Assembly (NCBI GenBank): GCA_030062745.1
Contig: CP099840.1
Location: forward strand, 7,932,138-7,996,137
Length of the DNA stretch: 64,000 bases
Direction of reading: 5' to 3'
From: Capitulum mitella
Taxonomy: Eukaryota > Arthropoda > Thecostraca > Pollicipedomorpha > Pollicipedidae
This document shows, one piece after another, positions 844 through 43,200 of this stretch; the first letter of the stretch is position 1, and every line of letters starts with the position of its first letter. Below the pieces are notes generated by a model that did no database searches, was not told where the DNA came from, and saw only the letters and a list, made by a program, of their open reading frames with translations. Both the position numbers and the translations under genes were made by a program.

Positions 844-1086
844 CGATCAACCATCCAGCTAAACGCTCCTGTCCAGATTTATCAAACAATAATGGGCCAC
901 TCCAGCTCGTGTCCTGGTTCTTCCTCAGTACCACGGTAAGCCACATTGCGCTGATTGTAATTTCACCGGCCTGTGGACAGAAGAAGTCATGAATGGAAAT
1001 GAATGAAATTATGTCCATTTATCACGCGAAAGCCGGACGAGGCATTGCGTAAACATTGGGGTCAAAGAGCGACCGGTGGCGCCCAA
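844..1086. promoter_or_regulatory. Duplicated non-coding element 1, copy A (candidate enhancer)
   Basis: This block aligns collinearly with 33124-33366 at an offset of about 32,280. Matching blocks are CGATCAACCAT (844; copy B CGATCATCCAT), TTATCAAAC then TAATGG (879-895), CTGATTGTAA before CGGCC (951), CATGAAT (988), TGTCCATTTATCAC (1012-1025), CATTGCGTAAACATTGGGG followed by TCA (1043-1064), and GCGCCCA near 1080. The right 97 bp look about three-quarters identical by eye. No frame is conserved between the copies, so I infer a regulatory rather than coding role. The core contains a forkhead-type GTAAACA and a nuclear-receptor-like GGGGTCA word. Orientation and target gene are unknown. Confidence 0.65.
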
Positions 1087-1104
1087 CATCGCGGCTTCTT
1101 TGGA

Positions 1105-1117
1105 GGGGGGGGGGGGG
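1105..1117. repeat. Poly-G run (13 G)
   Basis: Uninterrupted G homopolymer just after element 1 copy A. It is one of at least thirteen G/C runs of 9-15 bases in the window. Confidence 0.9.
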
Positions 1118-1586
1118 ACGAAGGATATGAAAAATACCCTAACGACGTGTCTCAGGGAAGCGATTCGTGCACCAGATCTGACCTTCATATATTCGCTTGC
1201 TCACAACTGGATGTTCGAGACTTTTAATGTAGTTTGTCTACGGATTATCACGACCTGCTTGCTTTGCAGGTATGAAGTTGTGGGAAAGAATGTGTGAGAC
1301 ACAGAGATTGGTGCGCGTACTGCCCAGTGCCAATGTGATGAGCTTTGTAATGCGCTTCCGCTAGAAACTGCAACCGGACTGTAAATCTACACAGAACCTT
1401 CGGATCGGCGAAGCGTCCTCTCAGGTTGGTCCAAACAACTCACGCTCTTCCACAGGACTGCGCACCGTTTACTGGGAACAGGGCAGCCTACATCGACCAG
1501 GACATCACCACGCTCTGTATCACATTTCAGGTCGCCGTGTTTCTGTTTCTGACCGATGGACCGGACTACGCGCCTCGCTCAAAACC
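1118..1586. other. Unremarkable non-coding DNA
   Basis: I see no supported gene, repeat or conserved element in this stretch. Confidence 0.5.
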
Positions 1587-1890
1587 TTGGCCGGCGCTGT
1601 GGAGAAGAGGCGTACTCGGCCGGTACTGCGGAGACGAGGAGTCCGTAGCAGACGCTGTGAAGAGGCATTCTCGGCCGGATCTGTGGAGAGAAGGCGTACT
1701 CGGCCGATGCCGTGAAGACGTGTCCTCGGCCTGCTCTGTGGAGAGGAAGTGTCTTCAGCTGACGCGGTGGACAGGAGATATCTTCGGCCTGTCCTGTGAA
1801 GAAGAGGTCTCCTCGGCCTGCTCTGTGGAAAGGAAGTGCACTCGGCCGACGCTGTGGAGAGGAGGTGTCCTCGGCGAGCTGTGAAGAGGT
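1587..1890. repeat. Degenerate ~29-bp tandem repeat
   Basis: About ten diverged copies of a unit with the pattern CTCGGCC...CTGTGGAGAGGAAG. The CTCGGC word recurs at spacings of mostly 26-30 bp, or double that (1615, 1670, 1699, 1725, 1782, 1812, 1841, 1870). Several overlapping open frames on both strands here are by-products of the repeat. Confidence 0.75.
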
Positions 1891-2300: not shown

Positions 2301-2311
2301 GACGTCACAGG

Positions 2312-3141: not shown

Positions 3142-3145
<4 letters not shown>

Positions 3146-3960: not shown

Positions 3961-5385
3961 AATCAAACGTTTAACTGCTACTCGATCCAAATGAAACATT
4001 TGAAGACTGTAAAGCACAAAAGGTTGTGTAAGCATTTAATTATCCATCCAGTGCATGCCAATCGGCACCTGTTCTAATTGTAACGCGTGTTTTTGCGCAT
4101 TTTTTCTCTTTCTGTTATATTTCATTTATGATTTCGCAGCTGAACATTTACATCTTTCCAGAATGAAAATGGATTCCAGTGCGTGAATATTTTATTTCGG
4201 GAGACTACGTCCAATTGAGTTTCTCCGCCCTTAATGCTCTGCAGTAAGTTCTGCCATCTGTTTCATACCAATTACTCTGCGATAAAAGGAGGCAGGCCCG
4301 GCTGGTAACTTGATAACGAACGAGGAAGTAACAGTCAGTACGTGACGGGCTGGAATGAGGAACCGCTCGACAGTCAATCCTTTTGAGATTGACCGTCGAC
4401 GAAGTCACATACATAAGCGCAGAAGCTTACGAGCGGAAAGAACAGTCTTTTCTGGGGTTGTGTCCAATGCCTGCGGTACCAATTTTCTTCTACGCTTATT
4501 GCAGCATAATGGTACACATTACAAGATATTGGGTTGTCTTAATGGATACACTTCACTGCCGTACTATGACAATAAAAATTACTGGAATCTATGCACTTAG
4601 CAGTTAACACAAACAAGGTACTCAAGGTTGCCCTTGTTTCAGACCGGAATTATGCATATATAAGATACCATTTCAAAAACGAAATTTGCCCATTCGTATA
4701 CACGTGGACTCATAAATATATGAAAAAACTGCCCTCGCATGATTACTTGATGAATCAAGTGTCTGACTGAGTGATAACGGGATGGAGACTCGCGATTTCC
4801 CGTCTTAAGCTGACATCACTGGAAAACGGCCGATGAATTTGAACCTCCCTTGAACCCCCTATACTTTCCCACGTTTCCTCAATGCAGCTGGCATGCAACT
4901 GGCGTGGCGACTCTATTTATTTATATGTGCATGAAATTGGAGGAACGGGTTCATATCACATATTGACCATTGTTTTCCTTTCTTACTGGTACTCCAGATG
5001 CCTTGTGTTGAGATCCGGGAAGATAACAGAAACATGTCGACAAGAGAGCTCAGAGATGTTGTCCAGCAGAGACGGAGATAGCTTTGACACATCGCAATAT
5101 CTGCGCATGAAAACACAATAGGGCTTAGCACATTGTCATGTTTCCAGTTGCATACCTGGTAGCCTCACGCAGCACATCTTCGTTCAAACCTTCACGACAT
5201 ACGCGGATACGAATATTTACATCAAATCATGAAGACCCACAGCATGACGGATCGTCGCACAGCACTGATGCGCGAGTCTTGATCGGTTCGTGGTTAGCTG
5301 CATGTGTCAAATGCAGTCTGTTGAAAGCTGTTATAGTGCGCCGCAATGCACGTGCAACGAGATGAGTGAGTTTGATGGCGAACAA
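3961..5385. other. AT-rich non-coding DNA
   Basis: I found no convincing exon, RNA gene or repeat. The open frames are short, lack neighbouring splice signals, and match no family I recognise. Confidence 0.5.
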
Positions 5386-5428: not shown

Positions 5429-7281
5429 CTTGAGGCCAATTATGACAACCCTAAAACATTCGCACATGTGCTATGCATCAAGTGATACCCATTTCTGCAT
5501 TTCTGGAACCCAGATTGCGCCACGTTTAGGGTGAAGTGTACGTATATTCACTTGGAAAACGTCCAAACGGCATACTGTCGATCTTTGAAATACGGTGCGA
5601 GGATATCCCAGTGGTCTTAGCAAAGTTTATTATAATATACATATGCAGGTACGCTATGATGCACCTTTTCTTGCACTATATTTTTGAGATTAAATCTAAT
5701 ATGCTGAAGACGTACATGCATGTATATTTAATGTGCGCTGGTAAGGATGCACGCAACAAAGGCATTTGTACATTTTTCTATGGCAGAATTCTAAGCCGAT
5801 CAGGGGTAAACATGGATATTTACAGGCAATAGGCGTAAAAGTGGTTCCATGAAGTACAAGTCTTCTGAAAACTATGGTAAAAGACTGTGCCATACGATTT
5901 CCTACTCGGTTTAAAGAATCCTTGGGATTTCGTCTGCGTTTATCAAAATTCTATCGCTAAATACAACACGTTCCAGTCGTACCAAACTCCTGCCAGGACA
6001 ACAGCGTCATCAGCCATCTTTGCACGCGGGCATTGTCAGACATGATAAAAGTCAGATGCTGCTCGTTTATCTCCTGCGTCAATCTGTGCATGTCTGAGCC
6101 ATGTAAGCCGCCTTAACGGACGGCGGAATCGGCAGTTACACTGCTCAGAGGCTGCTCAACAGTAGCGTCCATAACGACGTGGAAATAAACAGGAAACAAC
6201 AGGAATCAGGCCCCTGAAGCCACTTGTCACATCAAAGGTATCGTAACGTAACATTGACGGGACAGGGAATTATTCAGGGCTATGTGTGGGCTGCCTCCTC
6301 TGAGTGCGAGGCAGCATGTGCCTCACAATAGTTAGGCGATGATGCCATGAACTACTTTCCGCGGATCGGCGCTTATAGACGGCTTAAAATGTTGCGAACT
6401 TAAAAATCAGGAATATTGCGCTATTCTTTCGATATGGAAAGGGAGTAAACATGGCTGACGTGTGATACACATTTTTTTTTTAATCGAGGCAGGGTCGTAC
6501 CAACTCCACAGAGCCAGGTAGACGCTGTCTGTGCTGATTCGCCGCCGCCCGGTTTGCTTAGCAAACACCTGGCCGTCGGGCAGGACCCGTGTTTTCGCCC
6601 CCGCCCCACTTGTGCGTGCTTTTGGCGCCGCTGAATGGTGGCGAACCGTGGATTTCGTTTGATTTCGAGGAGGGGAACGCCCCTGGTCGTTCAGCCCCAG
6701 CGGCCGGTCGGACACAGTCCTCGACATGCCCGGCACATGTGAATAACTGATTAACGATAGAGATAAGAGGCCTCCGAGGCGGGACGGAGGACTTTGTTGT
6801 GCGAATCCGGTGGGCCACGTTCTGATTCTTGGAATGCAGTCAGACCTCCCACCGTGTCCCTCCGCCCTGATACAAAATACGGACAGAAATCATGTTTTCA
6901 AGACAAGGATGAACGCAGCATCGCACCACCACGTTGATCTAGGATGAAACAGAGAAATATACGTTTCAAGTCACCCGTATGCGTGAGAAATATTGCGGCA
7001 GGAGGCCAAATCTTCGTTTTCTTCAACCGGCAGCGCTTCCCCATCTATCAAAAGATGAGCTAAGGTGAGCCAAGAAATTCATTCGCCCTGACGGTCCAAC
7101 TACAATGGGTCGCTTCAGCTCGTACGGCCAGGAATCCATCTGGCGAGAATCGAGGCGTCCTCGCCGCTATTTTTTCGCCGGCTCTTGGCGCCCCTCTGTT
7201 TTTCTGATGTTTGGACAACGGCGGTGTATCATCTGTCTATTTCTGGCCGGCGGCGCGGCCGTCTCCGCCGGCCGCGGCAGG
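5429..7281. other. Non-coding DNA with a GC-rich patch
   Basis: Mostly featureless. A GC-rich patch at about 6530-6830 includes TTGCTTAGCAA (an imperfect palindrome) and GATTAACGATAGAGATAAG. The T-run at 6472-6481 is simple sequence. No gene is supported. Confidence 0.4.
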
Positions 7282-7737
7282 GCCGGGCGATTGTACCGCA
7301 GCAGGGCCGGGCGATTGTACCGCGGCAGCGCCGGGCGATTGTACCGAGGCAGGGCCGGGCGATTGTACCGCGGCAGCGCCGGGCGATTGTACCGCGGCAG
7401 GGCCGGGCGATTGTACCGCGGCAGCGCCGGGCGATTGTACCGAGGCAGGGCCGGGCGATTGTACCGAGGCAGGGCCGGGCGATTGTACCGCGGCAGCGCC
7501 GGGCGATTGTACCGAGGCAGGGCCGGGCGATTGTACCGCGGCAGCGCCGGGCGATTGTACCGCGGCAGGGCCGGGCGATTGTACCGCAGCAGGGCCGGGC
7601 GATTGTACCGCGGCAGCGCCGGGCGATTGTACCGAGGCAGGGCCGGGCGATTGTACCGCGGCAGCGCCGGGCGATTGTACCGCGGCAGCGCCGGGCGATT
7701 GTACCGCAGCAGGGCCGGGCGATTGTACCGCGGCAGT
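7282..7737. repeat. 24-bp minisatellite, 19 units
   Basis: Unit GCCGGGCGATTGTACCG plus (C/A)(G/A)GCAG(G/C), strictly 24 bp, from 7282 with the last unit starting at 7714. Units differ only at the CGCGG/CGAGG/CGCAG and G/C positions. Because 24 is divisible by three, all six frames stay open across the array. This accounts for the 200-300-codon frames seen here, with 8-residue periodic translations such as GRAGRLYR. I do not consider them genes. Confidence 0.95.
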
Positions 7738-7741
7738 ACCG

Positions 7742-8004
7742 TCCGCTGACGCCGGCCGCAGCAGGGCCGGGCGGTTGTACCGCGGCAGGGCGGAGCGACT
7801 GTACCGCGGCAGTACCATCCGCTGACGCCGGCCGCGGCAGTGGCGGGCGACTGTACCGAGGCAGCACTGTCCGCTGACGCCGGCCGCGGCAGTGGCGGAC
7901 GACTGTACCGAGGCAGCACTGTCCGCTGACGCCGGCCGCGGCAGTGGCGGACGACTGTACCGCAGCAGGGCCGGGCGACTGTACCGCGGCAGCACTGTCC
8001 GCTG
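7742..8004. repeat. 52/76-bp higher-order extension of the minisatellite
   Basis: TCCGCTGACG recurs at 7742, 7818, 7870 and 7922, and TCCGCTGAG at 7998. The spacings are 76, 52, 52 and 76, and 76 equals 52 plus one 24-bp unit. The core GGGCGACTGTACCG is the same as in the adjoining 24-bp array, so a new spacer was captured and amplified together with it. Confidence 0.9.
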
Positions 8005-11000: not shown

Positions 11001-12265
11001 TTTGCAAAATATTTAAACAACTGCCGGCTTAACTTCATTACCAGACAGTTACAGTTTCAAACTGGCCATATTTCCGTCTTTCCCGGACTGACATCTTTCC
11101 AGTGCGATCAAGCCATTTACAGAGATATGGCATTTTGTCCAGAGCTTCAGCGTCACGTGCCCACGCGCCACGCGCCCTCGGCGCCGAGTCCGTTTTTATG
11201 ACGTCTGCTGGGGAGATTGCCGAGGAGGCGTGAGTAACAAAAAACACCGCCACAACCGAACTCGTCCGGCTGTACCGTGCTCCAGGGCGGAGACCGGCGC
11301 CAGAGGTATGTGAAGAGAACTGATGCATGAAAGAGGAGACCCAGCAAGCTTTTTCAGCGAAGCCTCCGTGACTGGGAACTAAACGGCCACCTTCCTGATC
11401 ATGTCGATGTAATCGCTCCCACCGTTCAGAATGTAAATACGCTCTCTAATTTTTGTGCATAAATACGAGATGCGCACGACCCAGGACATCCATTTAAAGG
11501 GTGTAATTGGTAGGAGGGAAATGTTAATATGATACGATAGTGGGTGGAATCGAACATGAAGTTACGACCTAGCTCGCCGGAAAAGACGCTCCTTTGCCTT
11601 CGGGTTTACTACAAACCATGAATACAAAGAACGCTTCGTGAGCTGTGGACGATACAAACCTCATGCGCATACATCATCCAAGTAGTTCTCACATCCTGTC
11701 TAATTTGACTAACTCTTCATTTACCAAGGTTTTTGTAATCATTATTTCTGCTCCACATGCCGAACTAATAATTGAAAATCCCCAAAACGAGTTGGTCTTC
11801 CTGCGTTTCCACAGAGGTCCCCAGACACTTTCTCGTGAAATGTGCGGCAGGATGGGAAAATTACAGGATATTTTTACACGAACCACCATCTGTGACACAC
11901 AGAAGGCATGAACTGTATCTGACAAACCAGCCCACAACAGATTTTACCCAGCACGTTCAGAAGAGTGGCTCTTACTCTGGTGCCAGAATGTTTGCAGACA
12001 ATAAAAACTACCAGATTACCTTCAGATTTTGTTTTTCACCAGACGAACTTTGTTGAACGCGATGACAGTGTTGACTGGACTGTTTTCCGTAATTCCAGGC
12101 TCCGTGGCCGGCGCCGGCCTGGCGGGGCGAGTGTCCGGCCGAGCTGACCGGTGGACTGGCGTTCTCACGGACCGGCGGGGAGGCGCTGGCCCGGTCGTGC
12201 TCTGCTCTGTACAAATTGTTTGAAATAATGTATAAAAACGATTTTCATAAAATAGCATATATATG

Positions 12266-12266
<1 letters not shown>
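8005..12266. other. Mixed non-coding DNA with CpG islands
   Basis: CpG-rich islands at about 8005-8480, 9040-9600 and 11150-11300 are separated by AT-rich DNA (9800-11050 is especially AT-rich). At 8163-8177 is the inverted repeat CTGATCACTGATCAG, and at 8275-8285 a G11 run. The island at 9040-9600 ends with a near-palindrome AGGTTAAATTTAAACCT. No splice-bounded coding frame was found. Confidence 0.4.
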
Positions 12267-12317: not shown

Positions 12318-12536
12318 AACTACATAAAACAGCCTAATAAAAAATGAAATAACTTTAGTTTCGGTACGTTAAATGCATGAGCTGGCTGCTAGCTGCAACC
12401 AAAACATTTCATTTCTCTTATAAAATCCCATCAGAGGTTTATTGTCAATGAAACGCCTGCTCGCCGTCTTTTGACCGGGTTACAATGCCATCTCGACCCT
12501 CCGCGCCGCGCGAGTCGTTGGCCGTCGTCTCGAACA

Positions 12537-12790
12537 CCGGCGTGTCCTGTTTTCATCTGTCGCCTCCATACCGATGCGGCGATGAGATGCCGGGCGCTCA
12601 GCTGTCCCACCGGTCCCGGCCGCCAGGTATCGGCCGCATCTCGGCCGCGCATGAATGCCTATCAAACGGCGCAGCTGATTGGCTGCGAGCGGCGGCCGCG
12701 TGACACCGGCGCCGAGATTGGGTGACCTGATCGTAAACAATCGGGCCGCTCCGACCACCCGGTGACGCGGCTCGTGTTTATTCAATGTCT
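12537..12790. promoter_or_regulatory. Duplicated non-coding element 2, copy A (candidate enhancer)
   Basis: Aligns with 42930-43200 at an offset of 30,403-30,419. Shared blocks in order are CGTGT, CATCTG, CATACCGATGCG then CGAT (about 12568-12583), TGTCCCAC, GTATCGG, GCATCTC, ATGCCTATCAAACG (12655-12668), GATTGGG (12716), GTAAACA (12733) and CGTGTTT (12773). The spacers between blocks are diverged. Island DNA rich in CpG continues to about 13020, including CTATAAATTTCCAGG. No conserved reading frame; I infer a cis-regulatory element. Confidence 0.65.
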
Positions 12791-12988
12791 ATTCAATATT
12801 TCAGGTGCGGGCCGATCCCCGGGGCCGGGGTGGCGGCGGAGACGGCCCAGCCGGCTCCAGCATCCCGCGCTCTGGCGTCCTCGGGGTGCCGCCGCCGCCG
12901 CCGCCGCCTGGATGCGCTCAATCAGCCGAGACGTCCAGCTCTATAAATTTCCAGGTGAAATCGGTAAGGACCGCCCCGGGATGGCCTC

Positions 12989-16477: not shown

Positions 16478-19473
16478 ATTCGCAGCGCCATTAACGAGTG
16501 ATCAAGTCCATTTCCAGACCGCCTCCCGGGCGTTTCAATCAGCTTCAGCCAAGTGGGTTCTCGCCGATGCATGAACTACATTTGTTCCGTGGTCACGGAC
16601 TCGCGGTTGAAATTCATCTTGGCGATATTTTATACGGCCGTGAGTTCCGCTTTATACCATCAACCGCGGCAAACGACGCTTCCATTTCAGGGTCCGCCGA
16701 ACGTGAGAGCGATGCACAAACCGTTGGCAAATTTCATGCGCCATTATCACCTCGCAACGGGCGTTTCATGAGCCTAGAATTAATCAGGGATTGCTGGCCT
16801 AGCCGATATGTGCACAGCCTTTGCTAATTGTTAAGTTTCCAATTCGTAGCATGAGCTATCGATTCTGTTTGAGGGCAGAGCAGGACTGAATTGCTCCATG
16901 CACTGTCCGGTTTTTGAAGGAATTGAAAATGATTGCATGCACTGAGCAGTTCATGTAATAATTACCAGAATGTGCGCCTGACAAATGACATGGACTGTCA
17001 AGCGCATTAATTGTTCAAATTGCCAGGTCTAGCTGCATTACTTATATCACGAGCTGACACCAGCGCAAACGAAAGGGTGAAGCGATCCTCAGAAAGTCCC
17101 CGCGTTAATTACAAGGCACGTTGTTTTTTTAGTTCCCGCGACGCAGGAGCCCCACCTTGGTCATTACGGCCGTATTTTCTCCGATTGTAAATCAGACGGG
17201 CGCCGAATGTCGGGACCACTGCGGTCACCATTTGGGCTGATTGAATTAAACATGGCGGTCGGCCGGCGCCGGCCGGCCACCGCCGCCGGCCGGGCCCAGA
17301 CGGCCTGCAGTGGTGACATCACACGGCACACCGACCGCCTACTGTCCAGCAACGCATCGGAAGGTGTGCAGCCAGCGTTTGATGACGGCCAGGGAGTCAG
17401 GGAGTTTCAGACGCTGTCTGTTTTAAAGGCAGATATCGAGTAAGAAAATGCTGTCTCCAGTTTCACAGCGTTACGACTTTTCTTTCCACAGTCCAGAAAA
17501 CCCGTCTCTATTATCGCGGCAAGCGTCATCTTCCTTATCCACCAGGGCCAAATGCCGCGCTGGTTTGGATAAGTGAAACGCACCTTTGACCACCCACGTA
17601 GGACCCCAGGTGTCATGCGTGCTTTTAGCTTCCCACCAAGATCCAGCGTCATTAAAAAAATTCCTCCGTCAAACTTACCGCAGTGACTGAAATCATTACT
17701 GAATAGATTTCCCGCCCTTTGAAAGTCCTCTGTAATCCAGGGTTGTCCCTCCTATCTACCCAAGCCATTCACCGGCTGTATGTTATTAGCCGCGCCGATC
17801 AGGCGCCACGCACTAATCACCGTGCACCCCTGATAAGGGAGGTGATAAGGGTGAATTTGCGACTCGCCAACCCCGCCTGAGTGATCGCTGAGGACTCAGG
17901 CCAGCCAAACAGGATTAACAACGGACGTAAATCACAAATCACGAAACGGCTTCAAAAACTTCCGCCTTGGCACCCAACCCCACGTTAAGTTTCATTTTAC
18001 TGATTGATTTGTGTCTTCGAGTGAAAGACAGTGACCACCGACTTAAATGTTTCACTAAAGTCCTTTGACCCTAAGTTTTCCGACTTCAGTTCGCAACATT
18101 GCAAAGGACATGGCATCCTCTTCCTAGTCGCGTTTGAGTGTAACTGTTTCGTTTCAGTGTGATCTGCACGAAGTGAACGTCATTGCGGCCCGTCCAGGTC
18201 AGCCTCCGACGTCTGCAGGACTCCCGCGCCTCGGCAGGAGCAACCGTGGGAGACCAGGTGACATCAGGACGCCCTGGCGTCAGCGTTTCCTGGGGAGCAG
18301 TGCCGGTGACGGAGCAGGTGACGTCAACGTCTCCCGGGCACGGGCTCCCCAGACGGCGGCGTCCCCCGGCGGCGGCGGCGCAGGCGGCGCAGGCGGCCGA
18401 GGCGGCGCAGTCGGTGCGTGTCGCGGCGCCGTAACGCGCCGCCAATAACAGCCGGCGATGGCGGGCATTCTCCAATTCCGTTTTTATATCTATAATTGGC
18501 CGTCTAATGGCAGTGGGACGTCCGAGGGAGCGGTGGCGGCGCCACTGGCGCCGGGCGGGCAGCGGGCCGGCGGCGCTCAGACGGCGCCAGGCGGTAACTG
18601 TGCACCTCGCCCCGCGCATCGCCCCGCGTCAGACGAGCGCCTCTGATCGACCTCGGACGGGACCGACAGAGTGACAACGACGGCGGGGAATGGCGAGAAC
18701 CGCGATGCCACAAAACCGGAAAACGCCAGACGCCTACAATCTATGGCGTCCATCCTCCTGGATTAAACGATGGCATAAGAAGATGAAGAAAAACTGTTTT
18801 GGTTGAGAATCCTATTCATCACACAACGGGACGCATTACCACCTTTTATGAGACATTCCAATACTCATTGCAGTGATGCAAAAGGTCCAATAAACCAGTA
18901 CGACAAATGGACGCTTTTCAAGCAAACGAAACCAATAAATGGTCATTGGCAAAGAGGGCTGTCCTATAACCATAGTCAGGTTATCTGTATTACTTAAGCC
19001 GCGCACATTGTGCCAGATCACTTTCGACGGGCACCCTCCCCGTCCCGGGACATCAGGCGCGCGCCGCCCGGCCGAGGCGCCGGACCACGGTGCGTGCGAC
19101 CCGGACCGACAGAGTACCGTTTCCGGGGCCAGTGCGGCGTGCAGGGACGGCTGTCGACGGCACGGAGGCGGCCGGCGCGGCGGAGCGTCCGTCCCCGCTG
19201 CAACGACACGGACCCGAATTACACGCGGCCTAATAGCGGATCCGCCTCTCATTATGCCGCCGGAGGGCATCGTTTTTTAACGGCCGCCGGCCAGGTGGGA
19301 GCGAGTCGGCCGGTGAAGGGAGGAGGGGAGAGGAGTCCCAGCAATCGACCCGGTGTGAGCAGACGGCACTGGGGGCGCCCGGGACTGTCCTCAGTAGCTG
19401 ACGCCTTCTGCTAGCCAGGCGATCATCAGACGTTTCCTCTCCTGTCACAGAAACGGTGTGATAGGTGGTGGGG
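16478..19473. other. Non-coding DNA with candidate regulatory islands
   Basis: CpG-rich islands at 17160-17360, 17760-17890, 18180-18660 and 19020-19400 are interspersed with AT words such as GATTGAATTAAACATGG, TTATTAGCC, CACTAATCACC, TTTTTATATCTATAATTGG and GGCCTAATAGC. Mixed islands of this kind are typical of regulatory DNA around developmental genes, but no coding exon is seen. A weak resemblance of 19227-19254 to 48888-48908 is noted in the findings. Confidence 0.35.
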
Positions 19474-26645: not shown

Positions 26646-28981
26646 TCCGAAGCTGTGGCTGGGCTCTGCTCCGCACTCTGAAAACGTGCTCCGCTGACCA
26701 GGCAGACAAGGAAACAAAAACCACGGGAGAGGCGTTACGCGGCGATAGGGAAGATCCAGGTTCTCGAATTGCTCAGCTGATGTTATTATACGTCGCCATG
26801 CTGGGAGCCAATAAATAATCAGTCTATCCAACAGATAAATTTTAATAAAAGACAGCAAGGTCCACACATATAAAATTTAATCACGTAAATGCAACTTTGG
26901 TCCAATGCATTGCTTCATCCTGAAGAGCAAAACGTAGAAATCCATCAGATTTCTCCGAAAGAAAAGTAAAAAGGCTAAGTTTTCTTTCTTCGTCTTTCAC
27001 TATCTACCCTGTTATGAACGATAAAGCGGCGAAGAACCTATTCATGGTATGGAAAACCTGATTTGGTGCGACTTGACAGCAACTCACGAAACAACAGAAC
27101 AGCTTAATGCGACATTAATAGGCTCAGTTTCTAGGAAAGAAAAATAATTATGATTCCATTTTTACCTGTGGGCACCACATCAGCAGTAACTGTATATCCG
27201 ATCATTAATCGCGCGAAACGCACTATTGGAAGAATTAGAGGAAAGCGAGTTTTATCTTTCAGTTCTAAAAATTTGATGCATGAAACAACATCTGTTCGTG
27301 AGGAACATGTACTTTAATTAAATCCCCGTTGCATATCATCCGACCTTCGAAATAAATCATCGTATGTGAAGTCCGTGAAACTGATTGGTTAGTTCCAGGT
27401 GTGCAGTAAGGCTGGCGAATCATATTTTGTTATTCATGGTTTATCGGCGCAGCGCCCGCACATGGTCCCCATCCAGAGCCCGCAGGTACCTGAGCTCTGC
27501 CTCGTCCGGCCGCTGCTGGCGCCGCCGCCATCTTGATCGGACGCCGTCTCGATCTGAGGCCGACCGGGGCCGGCGGCGGTCGGCGGCCGCCGCCTGCTGC
27601 TGCCCGGCGATCTGTCTGAGGAGGTGTGCAGCCGGCCGGCGGGACCGCGGCGAGACGCTGGGTGGCCCCGCAGCGGACGCCGATTTATGATAATGTTTTT
27701 ATCGGCTGCGGCCAACCCGCCGCCGACGGCCGGCCGTTTGATTGGTGCTTTATGTCGGTCGGTCGGCTCGCGCTGTTGCTGTCGGTGGACTCTCCCGCCT
27801 CCTGGGTTTGTTTTCTCCGGGAAAATGACACCGTCTTAAAGAAAGACAGCCTGGCTGGACGTCTTGTAGGCCAGCGGTCGAATATCCGAGATGGATTACG
27901 TATCGATTGTGATCGCGTATGCTCCATCGAAAGAACCGATGTGCTACAGGAATTCGCTCGTTGCACTTGATGGAAAATTTTACGGATGGCTGATCGCAGG
28001 GTGATGAGGGTTTTCTTGTTTGTCGGTGTGAACTGATGCGTCTGACTTGTCCTGGCCACTGAGTCGTTGACAAGCCGTAAAAATGACCTCACTAACATCC
28101 CATTTTCAGGGCGCTATTATTGCATTTACTGGCGCCAACTTCTACGTTTGATCCCTTATTACCACAAAGTAGACAATGAGCAGTTTTTGAGCTGGCAAGA
28201 GGTGGGGTGGGCGATTGGACGCCAGGATTCGGCCAAATGTCTCGGGTTCAAACCTGATTAACCGCAACAGTTTTGTCGTTTACCACCGCCGCTGTTTATC
28301 GGAGCAGGTTGGCTGCGAAATAATGCCGCAACTAGATCCGGTAAAAGAAAAAACCTTGCGAGATCTTTCAATTGATGCCATCGTGCCTAACCATGCTTTA
28401 ACCTAACGTCCATTCGCATACTCCATGCATTGCAGTAGGGTAGCGTCCAGTATAACCTGGTGCGCATAGCTGATGAGGAAATGTGCATTAGAAGCAAACG
28501 GTGTAAGTAAATATTGAGTTTTGCACCCTGATGACGGCGACAAATGCCTGCGCTGCGAACTATTTCAGCGGTTGTGCGAGACCTACCTTGCGACAACAGC
28601 GTTTACATGATTTATCTGATAACGTCCGACTACTCTCAAGTGAGTATCGGCCTGCGCGCCGCAGTTTACTGAACCGTGCCCACGTTTAATGCAGATTCGG
28701 CGATTTTGATGCAAATCGCCCCCTCTGACAGGCCGACCGGGGGCGCCGGCTGGTTTTCACAAAACCCCGTCTGCCGTGACTGTTTTCACACGTGCGCCAC
28801 CCTCTAAAAAGCAGGGCGCCCTGGTAAAAACGCTCATTCAGGGACGCAGAAGGGGGAGAGAGGGAGAACAGGAGGAGAGGAGCAGGCCGACTCGACGCCG
28901 GCCACGTGCGGTGGAGAAGCCCGGCACGCGCCCCTCACACATCCGGCCAGACGGCTCTGTGGTACCGGCAGGGCGACTGGT
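26646..28981. other. Non-coding DNA with islands at 27460-27790 and 28630-28760
   Basis: The 27460-27790 island contains GCCGATTTATGATAATG, TTTTTATCGGC and CCGTTTGATTGGTGC, words of the same style as the duplicated elements, but I found no good second copy. 26830-27430 is AT-rich and featureless. No splice-bounded coding frame. Confidence 0.35.
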
Positions 28982-30350: not shown

Positions 30351-33123
30351 ATGCCGCCTGCTAAACTGGGTATTTTTCACTTAACCTGCCACTATTAACC
30401 TCAGCTGTGCGACTGTGCGGCTGTGGATGGGGATATTTGACGGATCGGCGAGACAAACTATTACCACCGCTTACATACACAGCTTCCTCCTGATTGGAGA
30501 TAAACATGTTTGCTGCAACGCAGCACAAACAGGAGAGCTGACGCCTCTCAATGCGAGCCCTGGCCACGAGCGAGGTCGAACCGCCGGGGGCGTCCGCAAC
30601 AGTCTTTTCACTCGTGGCCCTCATACGGGCGTGTAGCAAAAAATGATCGAGAGAAGGATGTACATCAGACCAGAGGACGCGACGAGGTTCCGTGTGAAAA
30701 ACGCTTGACGCGCGTACTTAGGTGCCGAAGTGGATCCATTACCCACACCAGAGGCGCGGAACGGGATGTGGGGAGTTCCTGGCCGTGGTACTTGCGCCTG
30801 ACGTTAACAAAACTACCAGTCCGACAGGCTGTGGGACACCAACATAGCAGACCATCCCTGACCACGATCCCTGCCCGGCGCCGTCAGGACACCGATCGGC
30901 AGGGTCGGTCGCCTCTGATCCCAGTGAGCCGGTCCCGCCGGAGCGGACTGCACGACCCGCGACCGGTCGCCCAGCTCGGCCGCCTGTTTACCGGCCCAGA
31001 GCCGGCCGGCAGGCGGCACGAGCGTATTTTTCTATTGTTTGAGATGTGGGAGCGCTCGGCGGTCGGAGCGCCGTTCGGGTTTACGAGGCCCGCCCGGACG
31101 GCGTCGAGAGCTCGTGCTCGGCCAGCTCTCCTCCGAGCAGGGAGTCCGCGTCACATCGATCCGATCGGGCTGCGCCGGGGTCGTCCGGCGCCGTCCAGCA
31201 AGCGGCACAATCCACCGCGAGCACCTGGTGTGATTCCACGTCGTGAAGAGCTCAGGGAGAAAGTAAACCAGGATTTCTGAAAATTCAGACATTCTGCACA
31301 GTTCGTATTTCGGTACAACGGTGAAAGATGGTGCCTGTGGGTCGATGATGCGTCAGACCGTAACATATCTTCTGGAGTGGGTGTTTCCATGGATTTCAGG
31401 GGCATCGACAAGAGAAAGACTGAATTTTGTCGATGGTGACTGTCACTGTTTGACAGCAAAAAGGAAAGCGAAAGTAGCACTGGAAGTCGACTTACAAATA
31501 CCATTATGCCACTCATTCCAGTGAGTTAAAATCAGAGCACACCTTAACGGTGCAACTCGTGTCAGTATAAGAATGCGTTGCCATGCTCACTAAAACAAGT
31601 ACAGACACTCTCTCACCAAGATAAAGCAGTAAGTGGAAACGTCTCGATGTCACCTAGGCGCCGGTAAAATGGCCGGGTGAGCCGACGCGGCAGCGGCCGG
31701 CCGGAGGCGATCCTGTTGCAGGGCCGGGGCGAATCGTCGTGGGAAAGCCGGCCGGGAAATTCACGTCACCTGACCTGCGTGTAACTTCATACGGTCGTAA
31801 CGAGCGCGCAGAAACGGCCGGCAGTCGACACAAAGAAAAATCGATGTCACCCGGAATCGCGTGCCGGCCGGAGACGCCGACGGAGCGGCGGCGCCGAGAC
31901 AGATGTTGTTTGTGCCCCGGGAAAGGCATTACCAGTCAGTGCCGGGACTATTTGGAGACGGCATGACTTGTGTGCCGGTTATCGTACCGCAGCAGCTATG
32001 GACACGGACCCGCTGCACGGCTGCGGCTGATGAGTTGCGAATTTCGCGAACGACAAAGGAACGCCATATTGGATGAGCGCTTGTAATCGTTTGTTGCATT
32101 TGCGTGCCAGCCTTAATATTGGACCAGAGCCTGTGCCAGAATGACTCCTAGACTTCGTTTCTCGATCATCGGGCCCAAGTAATTGGCCTATTGCCGCCAA
32201 GTATGCACTCGTTTATAAATGATGTCGCTCGTGTTCATCGTCGTTGTAAAACGTTTGCGAAACCGATTGTCCCGGACGAGCACATCTCGGAAAGCAGAAC
32301 AAAATGGCGCGGTCTGGTGTGTGTGTCTGTCGTGGCTAACAATCCAAACCACAGCGCTTTGTGTTGAGGCTCTTTTGTGCTGGTTATTCCAAAGGAGCTG
32401 CACTGGCATAATGCAGTTAGCACAACGTTTTTACATTCTCCATTAAAGAGGTGATCCCTTTTGTCTGGAAGAGCTCGAGAGAATCCTTCTCAATAAAGGA
32501 CTTGATTCGCAGTTGTTCGTTGCCTATTTAACGTTTCCTCAGAAACACATCTCTAATTAGAGCACACATGCGAACCAAAAATCTTCAGCGATAACGCTGT
32601 ATTGGATTCTACCAGGAAAAAGACATAAGATAGCTTGCTGGCGTTTGCTACCCTGAAGAAAGACTAAAAAGTGATTCACGTCGATAGCTATTCGGCACTG
32701 GTGCGTCAATATACCAGTAAATCAGTATTCAATGCACTTTTCGCTCGTTGCGGTGTGCGGCCGCTTCTCGTGATTTGCATTTATTGCGTGGGTCCAATTT
32801 GTACGGCTGGTAGCACCCTATTAGCTCCTGATACCACGTTATTTATTTCGGGTGGTTCCAATCTAGATATGATAATCCTGCGTGAATAAACTGGCATCGA
32901 GGGGCGTCGATCGCTGTAAAAACGCCACGAGAGTGCGTGTTTGTTAGAGAGGACCGCCTGATCAATTAGACGAACCGCCTTCCTCTCCCAGTCTCCACCG
33001 TTCCCGCTCCCGCACTCATTACAATCTGAATACCATTACCAAAGTGTAATGATATGAAAATTCTGCCCTGGGGCCAGGTGACGGCCTGGCAAATTGCCGA
33101 TCGATATTTTCATTTTAATATTA
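30351..33123. other. Non-coding DNA with CpG islands
   Basis: The 256-codon + frame at 30510-31280 crosses a GC-rich island (30870-31240) and contains no recognisable domain, so I treat it as chance. A second island lies at 31660-32060. At 32960-33123 the homeodomain-type words ATCAATTAG, CACTCATTACAATC, ACCATTACC and TTTTAATATTACG lead directly into element 1 copy B. Confidence 0.4.
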
Positions 33124-33366
33124 CGATCATCCATTACGTGCGTTCTACCATTAGTTATCAAACTTTAATGGACCCAATGCACCGCCGGCTACTGTCCGAC
33201 TCAATTCTGAATTGCAAATCGGCCGAATTAGAGAGATAGCCATCCGAGACGCCGGCGGCCTCGGCGAGCCATGAATCGGAACGCCAGAAATTGTGTCCAT
33301 TTATCACCGGCGACCAGCACGGCCATTGCGTAAACATTGGGGTCACGCGTCGACCTGTGCGCCCAG
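33124..33366. promoter_or_regulatory. Duplicated non-coding element 1, copy B (candidate enhancer)
   Basis: Counterpart of 844-1086. The landmarks CGATCA (33124), TTATCAAAC (33155), CTGAATTGCAA before CGGCC (33207), CATGAAT (33270), TGTCCATTTATCAC (33294-33307) and CATTGCGTAAACATTGGGG followed by TCA (33324-33345) sit at the same order and nearly the same spacing (offsets 32,256-32,282). GCGCCCA closes the match near 33359. Sequence between blocks is diverged. Dense AT words upstream (32960-33240) suggest the active element may be larger than the conserved part. Confidence 0.65.
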
Positions 33367-33781
33367 CCGAAGTGTGTGGCGCGAGGCAAGGCTGTCGGGC
33401 CTCTGCCAGCTCAGCTGCCGGCCCTTCATCGGACCGGGCCCCCTCGTCCGTCACAGCTGACGTGCGTGGAGTCCGTCTCAGGGGACTGAGCCGGGACTCC
33501 TGAGAAGGTGTGGGCCGCCCTCCAGAGCCAGACGTAAAACCGGGAGCTGGAAACCAAGGGACGCGGTGCGAAAGGGCGCGTGGAACTTCTCGAGAACGAA
33601 ATGGTCGCAAAATTGACGAAGTACTGGGAAATCGCCAAAAACGACAAATGAACGGCTCATTGTTGGGTTTAGCATGTCTCGCGGGCCCACTGCCTTCCTC
33701 TGGGTCTGCAACAGATGGCTGTTGAGCGGCTCTGTACCGTTTCAATGACTGAAAGAAATTTTATCAACAAACACCAAAAGT
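33367..33781. other. Non-coding DNA
   Basis: GC-rich to 33520, then mixed. No gene, repeat or element-1-like match beyond 33366. Confidence 0.4.
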
Positions 33782-33893: not shown

Positions 33894-33983
33894 GCCGACC
33901 ACCAGCCCAGCCGACCTACTGATACATGAGCCCACCTCACTATTTGTCCTTGAAGCGCTTCATTAACAAACATAAGGCTTTAA

Positions 33984-35205
33984 CCCTATTCCCGGCAGGG
34001 CAGCTGAATCCGCCCTCCCCCCGTCAGGTTTTTTTGCTTACCAATTCCAGGGTTTTTGACGCAGCTCCACGAAACTTGGTGACTTTTCTTAGCTTTTCTT
34101 TTCTACGTGCTGCAACAAAATTTTGAAATTCTATTTTGCTCAGGGGCGGAGCCAGGCAACGTTTTTGGGAGGCCCTCGGGCCATTTTTGGCCTTGTTGAG
34201 GGTAAAAGAAAAATGGCTGCCAAAACTAGCGTTTTTAAGATGAAACTTGAAACTTTAAATAGATGTATGGCTAAATAGCTGGGCAACGTGCAAATACAAT
34301 TTTGTTCATCTGAAGCCACTTTACAAAGGTCAGGCCAAAGTCAAAAGTCCAAAATTTGGCCTTAAAGTAATAATTTTGGCGCCATTTTTTAAAACGCCAT
34401 ACCCAAGATACATGTATGACATAAAAGGGTGCCCTCTACTTTTGTTATCAAAGTTTGATCTTGATATCAAGGTCGGGTCACGGAACTATGACCTAAAATG
34501 TCAGAGCGCATACCCTATATCACAATAGTCGTAAAATGGAATTTTTGAAACAGGGTGAATTAAAATGATTGAAAACGTTTACAGACAATATTAAAATCAC
34601 ACGAGGTCATTCCAAGGGACTACAAGGTCACTGGAGATCATTTAATGTCGAAGGTCAAGAGTGGATTTGAAGAACATTTGACCATGACAGTCCCCCTTTT
34701 TCATGTCCCTGGCACCGCCTATGCTAACATTATACTAACACTGTAATCTGTTTCTACTTCTTTAGCATACCATGACTAGTAGAAGTCAAAAAAGTGTTTT
34801 TGCCTTTTTGTTCATTCAGGTTTTGAAGAACTAATCTACCTATTTTTAAAGCCCTGTGAACGCCTATGAATTTTCTCAAAATTTCAAATGTGTGTACCAA
34901 TGGTAAAAGTCCCATCCATAATTTCTCCGATTCATGCCAATTTCACCAAAATTGGTCCCTAAACAACGGAGTTACAATAAGTCCAAAATACCCCCCATTT
35001 TGATATTTTTTCTACCCTGTATTCACCCTTTTCAAAATTTCGAGGACTTCCTCTTTTAAAAGTGTGGTTTACGTCATGGCAAATCGATTGCCGTTTGTCG
35101 CGATGAAATCGGATGCGTAGTTCTCAAGATCTCGAGGGGCTGAATCCGCCCTCCCCCCCCCCCTGCCGGGAATCGGCCATACCGCCTAGCACTCCGGGAA
35201 AAGGG
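33984..35205. mobile_element. piggyBac-like non-autonomous element (MITE), about 1.2 kb
   Basis: Flanked by TTAA on both sides (33980-33983 and 35206-35209), with ends CCCTATTCCCGG and CCGGGAAAAGGG that are inverted complements apart from one base. TTAA duplication and CCC...GGG termini are hallmarks of the piggyBac superfamily. The word GCTGAATCCGCCCTCCCCCC lies just inside both ends in direct orientation. No transposase frame is present. A second inverted-repeat element appears to be nested within (34141-34723). Confidence 0.6.
34141..34723. mobile_element. Nested MITE with CAGGGGCGGAGCCAGG end
   Basis: The left end CAGGGGCGGAGCCAGG and the right end, whose complement is CATAGGCGGTGCCAGG, match at 13 of 16 positions in inverted orientation, enclosing 583 bp. 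The end motif resembles the element at 41151-41479. CAG-N-GGCGGA termini are seen in some hAT families, so hAT-like is a tentative label. No 8-bp target duplication was found. The interior is non-coding and AT-rich. Confidence 0.4.
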
Positions 35206-35209
35206 TTAA

Positions 35210-36399: not shown

Positions 36400-36985
36400 A
36401 GCGACGGGACCGGAGCCGGACAAAGACGGGACAGGAGCCGGCCTGAGACACGACCTGAGCTGGCCTGAGGCAGGACCGTCAGCTGGGTGGCGGGAACGGA
36501 ACCGGACCAAGGCGGGACCGGAGCCGGAGCAAGACGGGACCGGAGCCGGAGCAAGGCGGGACAGGAGCCGGACCAAGGCGGGAACGGAACCGGACCAAGG
36601 CAGGACCGGAGCCGGAGCAAGGCGGGACAGGAGCCGGACCAAGGCGGGACCGGAGCCGGAGCAAGGCGGGACCGGAGCCGGAGCAAGGCGGGACAGGAGC
36701 CGGACCAAGGCGGGACCGGAGCCGGAGCAAGGCGGGATCGGAGCCGAAGCAAGGCGGGATCGGAGCCGGAGCAAGGCGGGATCGGAGCCGGAGCAAGGCG
36801 GGATCGGAGCCGAAGCAAGGCGGGATCGGAGCGGAGCAAGGCGGAACCGCATATAGGCTGAGACAGGAGCGGAGACGGATTAAACCAGGACTGGAACAGG
36901 TGCTGGAAGGGACCGAAGCGGACCAAGACAGGCCCAGGGCAGGAACAACGCGGGAACGGAGCCGAACCAAGACCGGAACGGAGTG
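36400..36985. repeat. 22-bp purine-rich minisatellite
   Basis: Unit AAGGCGGGACCGGAGCCGGAGC (in two halves: AAGGCGGGACC and GGAGCCGGAGC), regular at 36490-36850 with about 16 units, degenerate on either side. The CC/GC and GGGA(C/T) positions alternate, giving loose higher-order patterns. The strand is strongly G/A-rich. Overlapping 120-225-codon frames on both strands are repeat by-products. Confidence 0.9.
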
Positions 36986-39900: not shown

Positions 39901-41150
39901 TCGGAAGTGCTAGGGACGAGGGAGACTAACGAGTCACTCACAGAGACACGAATCGCCTGTGAAAACAGCAGTTTCGCAACAGTGAAAGTGCACCTAGATC
40001 ACAAACGACTTCAACATTAAACAATTAACAATTAGTTTCTTGCGGCCCTGATATACTGCGGATCTCCATCGTCGCCTCTGTGATGCCATCTGCGTCTTCC
40101 TCAACCAAACATGCCGTGTCGGGACGGGTTACCATCGTTGTGCCTAAGTCGAAATCGACCAGATGGAGCCGGAATGAGACAGGCGAGAGCGGCGGCCGTC
40201 TGGGCTGACGCGTCAGCAGCGTCACCGCCTGGTCCATTCTGCCGGCGTCGTGCGGCGCAGCGTTCTTCACAGGCAGGCAGGAATGAACGCCCAGGCCCGG
40301 CCTCAGTGTTACCACGTCACCACCGACCAGACATTGTTGTGTATATCTGCGTCAGTGATGCGACCTTATCTCAGTGAGGTCCGACATGTGAGAGAACATC
40401 AGCCATCATCCCATTGCGAGCCCCGCTGCCGAAAACACGCCAATAAACAACTCAGCCAAACGAACAATAACGAGGTGGTGGCATTCGGTAGTGATTCATC
40501 TCCGTCCCGAGGGAGACGCCAGGCGATGCCGAGGGGGGGGGGGGAGCAGAGCGGACTTCCTGCTCTGACCAGGCGGTCCCCTCCCGAACCCGATACACCG
40601 ATACCGGTCCAATGCGTTTCCGGCATTTCAATCGGGAGGGGCACATATATCACACGCGGGCCACTCTGGCCACATGGTCCGAAGCCTTGGTCTGGATTTG
40701 ACGTTCCCATTGCCCCCTTCCGTTCACCCGTCACCCCCTCCGGGAGGGCGGGGGCTTTGAAGACTTTGTGTGCATTCCGGTGGAAGTGACCACAGCTGCT
40801 GGCGCCGACGAGTCTTTGTTCTCAGGAAGTTCGAAAAGGATCCCTAAGCCTCTGTGACACGTTCAAATATTATCCTGAGAAAATGAAGTACAAAACACTG
40901 GTAGCGACAAAAATATGTCCTTCTTCCACGCCTTTTTCGAGATCTCCAATTGGAAAAGTAAAGTAAGCAGATTATTCAAGTTCGAAATCGCTAACAGTAA
41001 GTGTAAAACAACTAGCGGATGAATCATACGACCTGCAAAAATGCAAAAAAGGTTCAGTGGCTGCCCCGCATATATAAAACAAAGGATTAATCGCGCCCAC
41101 ATGTGCAACAGATATCGCAGATCCGTTGCATATGAGCAACAGATCAACGG
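36986..41150. other. Non-coding DNA with several CpG islands
   Basis: CpG-rich islands at 37360-37530, 38480-38740, 38990-39330, 39590-39830 and 40190-40310. AT words in them include GCTATCAATGAGCGCATTATCC, GATTGATGCGTATTC, ACAATTAATGACGCC and CCAATAATGAGATCAGCC. A consensus-like donor CAGCGG|GTAAGT occurs at 37459-37470 but no convincing exon precedes it. Poly-G runs lie at 38523-38532 and 40533-40544. Confidence 0.35.
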
Positions 41151-41479
41151 CACTGGCGGATCAGGGGGTAGCTCGGCCATGGGCCACCTAACCGCGATGA
41201 GGGGGGAGGCAAATTGCCATCCCCCCCAAAAGACATGGGTGCTTCTACTCGAAGTTTAAAGTTGTTGAAACTCTGAATTCAACCTATGACCATCGTCTTC
41301 CACCCTTTGCCCCGGTCGATTACCTACCATCCATATCCAGCCGCTGAAGTACACATCCTGAACCCACGGACATCGCCTTTCATCCCCCTTCCCCCCGGTC
41401 GACGACTCCCCTGACTTTCCATCCAGATCCAAAGTCTGGTTTGGTCCCTCCCCAGACGGAGCCGCTGGATCCGCCCCTG
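41151..41479. mobile_element. Small MITE (~330 bp)
   Basis: Left end CACTGGCGGATCAGGGGG and right end (complement CAGGGGCGGATCCAGCGG) form diverged terminal inverted repeats. Interior words such as TTGCCATCCCCCCCAAAAG are typical of MITE families. No coding capacity and no clear target duplication. It shares end style with the nested element at 34141-34723. Confidence 0.45.
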
Positions 41480-42929
41480 TTCAGTGGTGTTTTAAAAAGT
41501 CCCGATAGTTTCATTTCATCGGAACAACGAATCTAATTATCGAAATCCAGATTAAAGGTTCGGGGTGTTTTACATATAATAATACGAATGAAGCAAACAC
41601 TGGGTGTTGTGTGAAACACCTGTTACTTTTCACTTATGGGTTTCTAATGTTCTTGTTTGTGTTTGGCTATTTAGAGATTCGGGACAGAATATTTTCATCA
41701 CATTGGTGCGTTCCGTTCACTTGGGGACCGTTCACCGCTCAACTGTAAACGAAAAGCAATTTCCAGGTGACTTCCAGGTGATAACAGGTGCATGAAATTG
41801 TCTGAGAAACCTGCACTTGTCGATACTTTTGCAGCCACTGAAGAATGCCGTTTCCTCGCTGAAGCAGACCACAAAAGAAAGTAGTCATTACGATGTCCCA
41901 ACCACCTAAAATGGGCCCGAACCTCGGCTACAATTGCAATCGAACCATTTTCGACGAACTCATTTCGTCTGGAAATCCCTGCGGTTGGACAACTGCATTG
42001 ATCTTCTGAGGTTGGAACACAGTAAGAGCGCGAAATGATTAAGTTTCTGGAAAACATCTGCCAATTTTCAGGTTAACTGTCGATATGCAGCTTGCAGGAA
42101 TCCCCCGGAGATGCGAACTAATTACGCGGCAGCGAAGGTGTCGCTGGTTCATCTGTCAGATCGGACAAGCACTAGTGTCAACGGCCCAGATCTGAAGCAT
42201 CGGAAACGCCAGAGGACACGGTGGCTAAGCCTACTCTATATTTTCGAACAAAGGCGCCCGATTATTACGCTAATTCGCTGGTGTTATTTTTTTGGTTCGA
42301 TTGCAGAGCTGTCATCACAAGGGTGAGAGTCAGCAGCGTCCATAGAGATTACCTGCCACTGCGAGTCTTTTGTGTCGCTGCATGAATTCCTGCCTCGAAT
42401 CGACATAAGTGGTCTCGAAGTGCATCGACTTGAGAATGATCAAGGCCTTCTTAGTGCTATATAACAAATACAAGCATCCAGACAAATTCCGATGGCGTTT
42501 TCTGTAAATACACAAGATGAGGCTGTTAGCGTCATTGCGAATTAAACGGATACTGTAAATGATTGTCACAAGTTTTGTCTCAGCTCGCCACAATTGCACC
42601 AACGCGAATCAGGAAGCTCAAACAGCTCTGCCACTTAGCTTGGCCTTGTTTGTTAAAAAAAAACTTAAAGAGCTTCACAAACCCGCAACAGACTGCTGTT
42701 GTTTGTTTGTTGCGAATTAGGACGCACAGTCTCTTGGGCTCAAGCGTCCGTGTCTTGAGTCAAGTCTTGTGTTTCGTCGGGCGTCAGTCAGTCGTCTGAA
42801 AAACAGACTGCTGGCCGCACGTCAGGGCGAGCGCGCTGCCTCGAAACGCGCCACTGCTCGTCCCGGTAGAGCGGTATTCAGCCGAACAATGGCACTGGTG
42901 CTGGGCGCGCGGCACCAGCCCGCTCTGTC
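41480..42929. other. AT-rich non-coding DNA
   Basis: No gene or repeat recognised. CpG content rises from about 42770 into element 2 copy B. Confidence 0.45.
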
Positions 42930-43200
42930 AGCTCTTATATCACCGTGTGCCAGCTCCATCTGATCGCTTCATACCGATGCGCCGATCAGCCGGGAAAGAC
43001 GCGTCAGTCACCCATTGTCCCACGGCTTTCTTACAGCGCGTATCGGTGAGCATCTCCGGAACTGGTGGATGCCTATCAAACGACTCACGTTCGGCAGCAG
43101 AACGCCGTCGCCGCGACAACGAGCCACGATTGGGCGGCCCGGTTGTAAACAGCCCGAGACGCAGCAGGTTGCCTCTGTGTCACCCTATGTCCCGTGTTTG
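42930..43200. promoter_or_regulatory. Duplicated non-coding element 2, copy B (candidate enhancer)
   Basis: Counterpart of 12537-12790. CATCTG (42957), CATACCGATGCG then CGAT (42970-42986), TGTCCCAC (43017), GTATCGG (43040), GCATCTC (43050), ATGCCTATCAAACG (43069-43082), GATTGGG (43128), GTAAACA (43145) and CGTGTTT (43192) keep the order and near-constant spacing of copy A. TCTTATATCACCGTGTGCC precedes it. No shared reading frame. Inferred enhancer or similar element. Confidence 0.65.

Follow-up and report, generated by a model that had tools for sequence, protein, structure and literature searches.

Duplicated conserved non-coding elements (CNEs) and the survival of sequence after the loss of a duplicate gene are already known, mostly from vertebrate genome duplications, and it is mostly after such duplications that the partition of regulatory content among duplicates has been studied. 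McEwen et al. are said to have described in 2006 how vertebrate duplicated CNEs (dCNEs) lie as copies at different loci after genome duplication, beside intact paralogues, and Dong et al. reportedly found in 2010 that CNEs or exon remnants outlast a duplicate gene. Here we describe a stretch of 64,000 nucleotides from the barnacle Capitulum mitella (assembly GCA_030062745.1, contig CP099840.1, positions 7,932,138 to 7,996,137; the window), which lies in an array of about seven gene-like units of the ARID3 (dead ringer/retained) family with 33 copies of non-coding elements. The units are X3, A, B, X1, C, X2 and D; X3, X1 and X2 yielded nine exons apiece, and the other four are gene-less.

As with vertebrate dCNEs, the elements are short and non-coding and can be aligned across paralogous developmental loci, whereas the DNA between them cannot; unlike dCNEs, the ARID3 copies form a tandem array at one arthropod locus, and 16 of the 33 stand in gene-less units. 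The zebrafish HoxDb cluster has been reduced to miR-10d, according to PMC3707753. In that case and in those attributed to Dong et al., as here, the coding genes of a duplicate are gone while other parts of it persist, and a stray exon fragment can remain; those cases, however, follow whole-genome duplication, whereas the ARID3 relics would come from serial tandem duplication and lie beside surviving paralogues, so that direct action in cis is possible. In the beta-globin cluster the dead copy HBBP1 has been proposed (PMC4390247) to serve cluster regulation. The ARID3 locus shares with that cluster tandem genes, gene conversion between copies and dead copies with a proposed regulatory role. Whereas HBBP1 can still be recognised as a gene, units A–D have kept hardly any exon sequence. 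Genomic regulatory blocks, as PMC5728398 sets out, are arrays of elements spread round a developmental regulator; the ARID3 locus, seen in one genome only, is alike in having such an array. Among the papers listed by our searches we found none joining barnacles with ARID3/dead ringer, none on conserved non-coding sequence of ARID3 in arthropods and, judged by titles and abstract openings, no such tandem case in the literature on retained or duplicated elements. The present locus differs from these cases in its tandem array, its occurrence in an arthropod, and gene-less units that outnumber the intact ones, four to three.

Results

Seven units, three of them with genes

Positions are window coordinates, written with w outside the window (w = position on contig C2 − 7932137, so that negative values lie to the left). 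The region analysed runs from w-89999 to w224000 (314 kb); an all-against-all comparison and a homeobox motif scan covered 264 kb, and genome-wide searches covered 477,042,490 bases in 16 contigs. Gene X3 occupies w-30001 to w-67001 on the minus strand, left of the window; X1, on the plus strand from w61525 to w87395, starts inside the window and continues rightward beyond it; X2 lies to the right, at w121315 to w154637, plus strand. X3 and X1 stand head to head, and the window (about 52% GC) is the space between them, save for exon 1 of X1. Inside it are the gene-less units A (from element E3 at 17.1–17.3 kb to E0 at w-7 kb) and B (from 43 kb, where E2 lies, down to E0 at 27.5 kb), both in minus sense, that of X3. 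Units C (w100.5 to w114.5 kb) and D (w159.3 to w207.7 kb) are also gene-less. The single run of N in the 314 kb (5 kb, w186295-191294) is inside D and could hide exons of that unit. This structure is well supported by homology, by a common order and strand, by confinement to the locus of the element types searched, and by the lack of recognisable exons in the gene-less units.

Blocks common to three places in the 264 kb translate as exons. Joined exons 4–6 of X1, with which alone the family comparison was run, matched Drosophila Dead ringer at 7.6e-68 (121/121 residues aligned) and human ARID3A at 1.2e-62, and the next ARID family, ARID1B, at 4.1e-20; with more of exon 6 added, they matched Pfam ARID at 2.4e-23. 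In the genome search exon 5 exceeded the Pfam ARID cut-off in all three genes, and its protein is 97% (X2) and 93% (X3) identical to that of X1. An ARID query found 12 matches in the genome, nine of which are the three ARID exons of X1, X2 and X3; three more lie on C2, C3 and C7 and are 53%, 53% and 36% identical. By their predicted products X1, X2 and X3 are ARID3 genes. ARID3 proteins have a C-terminal REKLES region; exons 7–9 are conserved in the three genes, and those of X1 gave no Pfam family match. The first coding exon found in X1 by the exon searches, exon 1, is at 61525..61644 (plus). It is preceded by AG (acceptor), as is exon 1 of X2, so that further upstream exons are expected; the start-codon exon of X1, X2 and X3 was not found.

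The initial annotation, which had noticed two pairs of similar sequences in the window, named Iroquois-type clusters as an example of developmental gene clusters that keep duplicated enhancers. The scan of 264 kb found neither WFANARR nor W[FY].[NS].[RK].[KR], although it would miss a motif interrupted by an intron, and the lone match to WF.N.R, at w-85430, is in an unrelated frame. We rejected an Iroquois or other homeobox cluster, because the scan showed no homeodomain and ARID3 exons account for the locus.

Collinear pairs and the catalogue of elements

The first of the two pairs is 844-1085 against 33124-33365 (offset 32.28 kb, Smith-Waterman score 104), with a core, 985-1085/33267-33365, that is 76% identical over 101 bp (blastn E 1.4e-11). 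The second is ~12450-12803 against 42843-43234 (offset 30.4 kb), which scores 126 as a gapped Smith-Waterman alignment and is weak as two separate blastn pieces (E 0.28 and 0.99). Local shuffled controls reached at most 46 for pair 1 (n=200) and 41 for pair 2 (n=300), and a window-wide control (tandem repeats masked, 1-33000 against the rest, dinucleotide shuffles in 500-bp blocks) reached 66 as its top score among 12. A banded scan of 300 positions, in which 882 shuffled values had a maximum of 71, added a third collinear pair with a score of 114, made up of the E0 copy at 27513-27714 and one at w-7143..-6950, immediately outside the left edge of the window. The offsets of the three pairs are 34.7, 32.3 and 30.4 kb. 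Also above 71, and outside the proposed gene order, were w-39473/w-10385 (scores 102, 92 and 79; own shuffles 35-62) and w-10190/22295 (76 and 74).

Much of what was first proposed for these pairs stands. Both are genuine, with 104 and 126 against a shuffle maximum of 66; the alignments bear out the order 1A-2A-1B-2B on a single strand; and the collinear alignable blocks in unalignable surroundings agree with duplication of a long segment whose likeness is left only in short, apparently constrained elements. The paralogous developmental genes expected nearby are there, X3 to the left and X1 and X2 to the right, X1 reaching into the window. Nor are the pairs isolated repeats found elsewhere in the genome, the searched elements being restricted to the locus apart from short partial matches, and both halves lie in one contig in a window without N. 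What has to be given up is the picture of a gene-free regulatory domain of ~30 kb in two copies, since there are instead about seven units and what was duplicated is a gene with its introns, and of copies with no exon sequence near them, since an ARID3 exon-3 fragment (12073-12207, minus) lies between them and exon 1 of X1 beside them.

The first-noticed elements 1 and 2 are an intron-3 element (E1) and an intron-1 element (E2), to which we add eight types. Upstream of the gene lie E5 (X3, X1, X2, D) and E3 (X3, A), and just upstream of exon 1 E4 (X3, X1). Intron 1 holds E2 (X3, A, B) and E6 (X1, C); intron 3, E1b (X1, C, X2, A) and E1 (A, B, X1); intron 4, E0b (A, X1, C) and E0 (A, B, X1, C, X2, D); and intron 5, E7 (X3, X1, X2, D). 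We made profiles from the copies and scanned with them the region itself, four shuffled versions of it and one reversed version; accepted matches had at least 17.2 bits, against a control maximum of 9.7. Most copies were members of the profiles and hence match by construction. Held-out profiles gave 36.3 bits for E0 in X1, 68.0 for E0 in D, 22.3 for E1b in X2 and 17.2 for E1b in A. An E6 match at w-34406 (11.0 bits, above its own control of 7.1 and below the general cut) and about ten matches below 10 bits were not accepted.

In the window, where the strand of an element of A or B is given as the sense of the lost gene, unit A has E1 (1A) at 820..1110 (minus; counterpart w72137-71900, X1 intron 3), a weak E1b at 4211..4319 (minus; E 6.5e-4 with the held-out profile, whose control maximum is 8.5 bits), E2 (2A) at 12429..12819 (minus; counterpart w-37129..-36721, X3 intron 1) and E3 at 17119..17328 (minus; counterpart 1.2 kb upstream of X3 exon 1). 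Unit B has E0 at 27505..27759 (minus), with counterparts in A, C, D and intron 4 of X1 and X2, and the partners of the two original pairs, E1 (1B) at 33100..33389 and E2 (2B) at 42835..43225, both minus. To X1 belong E5 at 54122..54510 (plus), upstream of the gene like its counterparts in X3 and X2, with a further one in D; E4 at 60470..60709 (plus), ~0.8 kb upstream of exon 1; and E6 at 62802..63139 (plus), in intron 1, with its counterpart in C. Upstream of X1 there is also an inverted pair, 48606-48675/55578-55509 (76% over 70 bp, E 3.7e-6), outside the gene order.

The cores of E0, E1 and E2 are ~68-78% identical between copies, in blocks of ~90-160 bp, and in long alignments of these copies only 43-61% of aligned bases are identical. 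The cores of E3 are 79% and those of E5 67-79% identical. E4 of X1 and X3 agrees at 187/237 aligned bases, with a 195-bp core at 87%, and E6 of X1 and C at 95% over 153 bp. All four copies of E5 have two ATTGG sites, which we take to be CCAAT-box-like, a motif presumably promoter-proximal. Because the copies of E0–E2 are only ~68-78% identical even in their cores and unalignable between them, they are not allelic, and an assembly artefact from uncollapsed haplotypes does not fit them.

One gene order in all units

A single gene order fits all 224 pairwise orders of elements and exons 1–6 across the seven units. Positions were entered by hand and the reference order was derived from X1 and X3; the independent tests are those of A (21/21), B (3/3), C (6/6), X2 (45/45, which takes in ordinary exon order) and D (3/3). 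Strand relative to the unit is the same in 32 of the 33 copies. In the intact genes exon 3 lies between E2 and E1, and exon 4 between E1 and E0, so exons 3 and 4 must have come along with what was copied into A and B.

Scarcity of exon sequence in A–D

Protein searches and nucleotide profiles of the nine exons gave one clear exon remnant in A–D, positions 176-310 of exon 3 in unit A. This truncated fragment, at 12073..12207 (minus), scores 110 bits with the nucleotide profile, matches 122 bp of X3 exon 3 at 94% identity, has an open frame, and sits between E1b and E2, as the gene order predicts. An AT dinucleotide run (12257-12315) lies between it and E2, near its truncation point.

A doubtful exon-1 remnant in D, w186195-186281, has 29 residues like X1 exon 1 (tblastn E 0.001) in the expected place and strand, adjoining the 5-kb run of N. 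Its nucleotide profile gave 6.6 bits against 9.9 in the control; among 2000 residue shuffles, 0 scored as high with X1, 8 with X2 and 371 with X3; and the same tblastn settings gave a wrong-strand match of E 9e-5 at w-42623. This stretch may be a true remnant. Exon-3 matches in D (w201553, E 0.049) and in C (w113560, E 0.003, out of order and of low complexity) were rejected, as were further candidates with E 0.004-0.3 at low-complexity, wrong-strand or out-of-order sites. Six other nucleotide-profile matches exceeded their own controls (exon 1, 12.7 bits; exon 2, 14.8; exon 3, 10.4 and 7.2; exon 7, 9.3; exon 8, 8.3); none is in A–D, all lying inside X1 or X2 or a short way upstream of them. 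To judge by both kinds of search, recognisable exon sequence is nearly all lost in A, B, C and D, while X3, X1 and X2 keep nine exons.

Non-coding character and confinement to the locus

Of the 198 gaps in ten element alignments, 170 have a length not divisible by three; among the element pairs listed, mismatches are spread over the three phases, with no third-position excess. Single copies of E0, E0b, E1b, E2, E3, E5, E6 and E7 have end-to-end open frames; no frame of E0–E6 is open at the same place and strand in every copy, with the possible exception of E6, in which a frame of ~44 residues (62974-63126) is open in both copies, X1 and C, so that E6 is possibly no enhancer but an alternative exon. 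We did not accept the elements as coding exons, because gaps and mismatches lack a codon pattern and open frames are expected in GC-rich DNA. RNA genes were likewise rejected: the window has no Rfam match at gathering thresholds and no tRNA, and the consensus folds of E0 and E1, the two folded, are weak (covariation term +1.11 and −1.21). The elements, E6 possibly excepted, are on these alignments and searches non-coding and without a known RNA family.

Six types (E0, E1, E2, E3, E5 and E6) were searched for genome-wide. These DNA searches score the best candidates only and are not exhaustive, as known weaker copies (2B and E0 of A) were missed. With 1A we found itself and 1B only; with E0 of B, itself and the copy at w114 kb; with 2A, itself and the copy in X3; with E5, four copies, all at the locus; with E6, two places; and with E3, its two copies and a 41-bp match at C2:27.1 Mb amid GC-rich repeats. 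The E0 pattern CATTATCATAARYCGN{11,13}GGCCACC has four matches in the 477 Mb, all at the locus (A, B, C and D), and none when read backward as a control. The E1 core pattern has three exact matches genome-wide, all at the locus, and five more with two mismatches; the control has one match. A dispersed-repeat family was rejected, the six searched types having no array of genomic copies of that kind.

Repeats of other sorts do occur. A 1.24-kb dispersed repeat at 33972-35209, in unit B between E1 and E2, has copies of 79-82% identity at w-14.1, w-12.0, w-56 and w156-158 kb. The 235 bp at 40574-40808 are 97% identical to w69427-69193 in X1 intron 3 and are probably a young repeat. GC-rich minisatellites with units of ~19-28 bases (7152-8020, 36405-36849, 54587-55045, 61098-61224 and others) yield long spurious open frames on several strands.

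Age and apparent gene conversion

Synonymous differences among X1, X2 and X3 in exons 1, 2, 4, 6 and 9 are 0.44-0.79 in 14 of 15 comparisons and 0.35 in the fifteenth (exon 6, X1–X3); after correction, 10 of the 15 are above 1 or infinite. As synonymous sites are near saturation, the duplications are probably old; unselected introns would then be near the limit of alignment, and elements that still align are probably under selection. Exon 3 differs by 0.05-0.20 in all pairs (X1 exon 3, w66446-66763), and between X1 and X2 exon 7 differs by 0.03 (X1 w84211-84342) and exon 8 by 0.10 (X1 w86473-86658), with 0.29-0.48 in the other comparisons of exons 5, 7 and 8. Exons 3, 7 and 8 appear to have been homogenised by patchy gene conversion.

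Discussion

We consider it likely that the locus grew by serial tandem duplication of an ARID3 gene, that the exons decayed in four of the copies, and that the elements were kept, presumably as enhancers of the surviving neighbours. One gene with upstream and intronic elements would have been duplicated in tandem repeatedly, with at least one inversion; X3, X1 and X2 would have kept their nine exons, and A, B, C and D would have lost theirs and kept subsets of elements in gene order. We infer that the elements are enhancers or promoter-proximal elements: E5 would act as a promoter-proximal CCAAT-like element, and E0, E1, E2 and E7 as intronic enhancers. Having no gene of their own, A and B need another target if selection is to act there, and X3 and X1 are the natural candidates; the elements of A and B would be kept through their action on these genes on either side, and the regulatory half of a dead copy would outlive its coding half. 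No E0 or E1 was detected in X3, and both are carried by its same-sense neighbours A and B, a split that would suit a locus in which labour is divided, with coding left to a surviving unit and regulation to dead ones. That duplication mainly multiplied regulatory elements, with four of the seven copies stripped of exons while selection held on to their arrays, leaving three genes driven by a shared enhancer field that comes in part from dead siblings, is a tentative extension to which we give somewhat less than an even chance.

Several observations weigh against this history. The elements are patchy: no E0 was found in X3, no E1 in X3, C, X2 or D, and no E2 in X1, C, X2 or D. E0 of X2 is flipped to the opposite strand. 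The least secure entries, E0b, E1b (in X2 and A) and the E7 copies of X2 and D, come from blastn matches of 24-50 bp or weak profiles (E0b was first seen as matches of 24-37 bp with E 1.5e-4 to 0.011; E7 in X2 and D, as 30 and 50 bp with E 0.002). The exon-3 fragment of A, at 94% identity, is far above the neighbouring E2 (72%), which gene conversion would explain, and conversion or some later event is needed. Selection on the elements is something we infer from paralogues only, in a single species, and the main caveat is that some of their conservation could stem from gene conversion. Finally, A, B or C may have lacked exons 5–9 from the outset.

That last point leads to partial duplication, in which A, B and C would be copies of the 5′ part alone, from upstream to intron 4, regulatory from the start and never encoding a working protein. 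Their elements do run from upstream to intron 4, and nothing further along, whether element or exon, was accepted in them from intron 5 on; however, D spans the gene from upstream (E5) to intron 5 (E7), the absence of later elements tells little because just one type, E7, is known past intron 4, and exons 3 and 4 were necessarily copied into A and B anyway. We regard partial duplication as unlikely. Gene conversion or slow decay could also have let elements persist without function in gene-less units, and the homogenised look of exon 3 (all pairs) and of exons 7 and 8 (X1–X2) speaks for such a process. The other exons of the three genes, though, are near saturation, and E0, E1 and E2 show their likeness in short blocks within unalignable surroundings, with no long near-identical tracts, which makes a general explanation of this kind quite improbable.

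The missing start-codon exon and the AG before exon 1 of X1 and X2, from which upstream exons are expected, together with the open frame of the exon-3 fragment in A, would suit a locus in which A and B are 5′ territory of X3 or X1, with intron duplications, alternative promoters or non-coding exons. Against this, A repeats the order upstream, intron 1, exon 3, intron 3, intron 4, and an upstream region would have no evident reason to do so; we hold this to be very improbable. It is scarcely credible that the elements are transposable-element repeats collinear by chance: dispersed repeats are present in the region, such as 33972-35209 with its four other places in the 264 kb, but the 477-Mb searches, which covered six types and scored the best candidates, placed the elements at the locus only, bar the one 41-bp match and the two-mismatch pattern matches. 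Serial tandem duplication of whole ARID3 genes, with loss of exons from four copies, thus remains the history that we prefer.

On that history the fates of coding and regulatory sequence have been separated within one locus, and repeatedly, four of seven copies being left with almost nothing except elements. The locus would be a natural test of whether a neighbouring paralogue can re-use enhancers once their own gene has died, and it also bears on the way in which tandem duplicates share out their regulatory content. It suggests, moreover, that enhancer-like elements of an invertebrate may be found in a single genome if its paralogous introns are compared, with no need of a second species.

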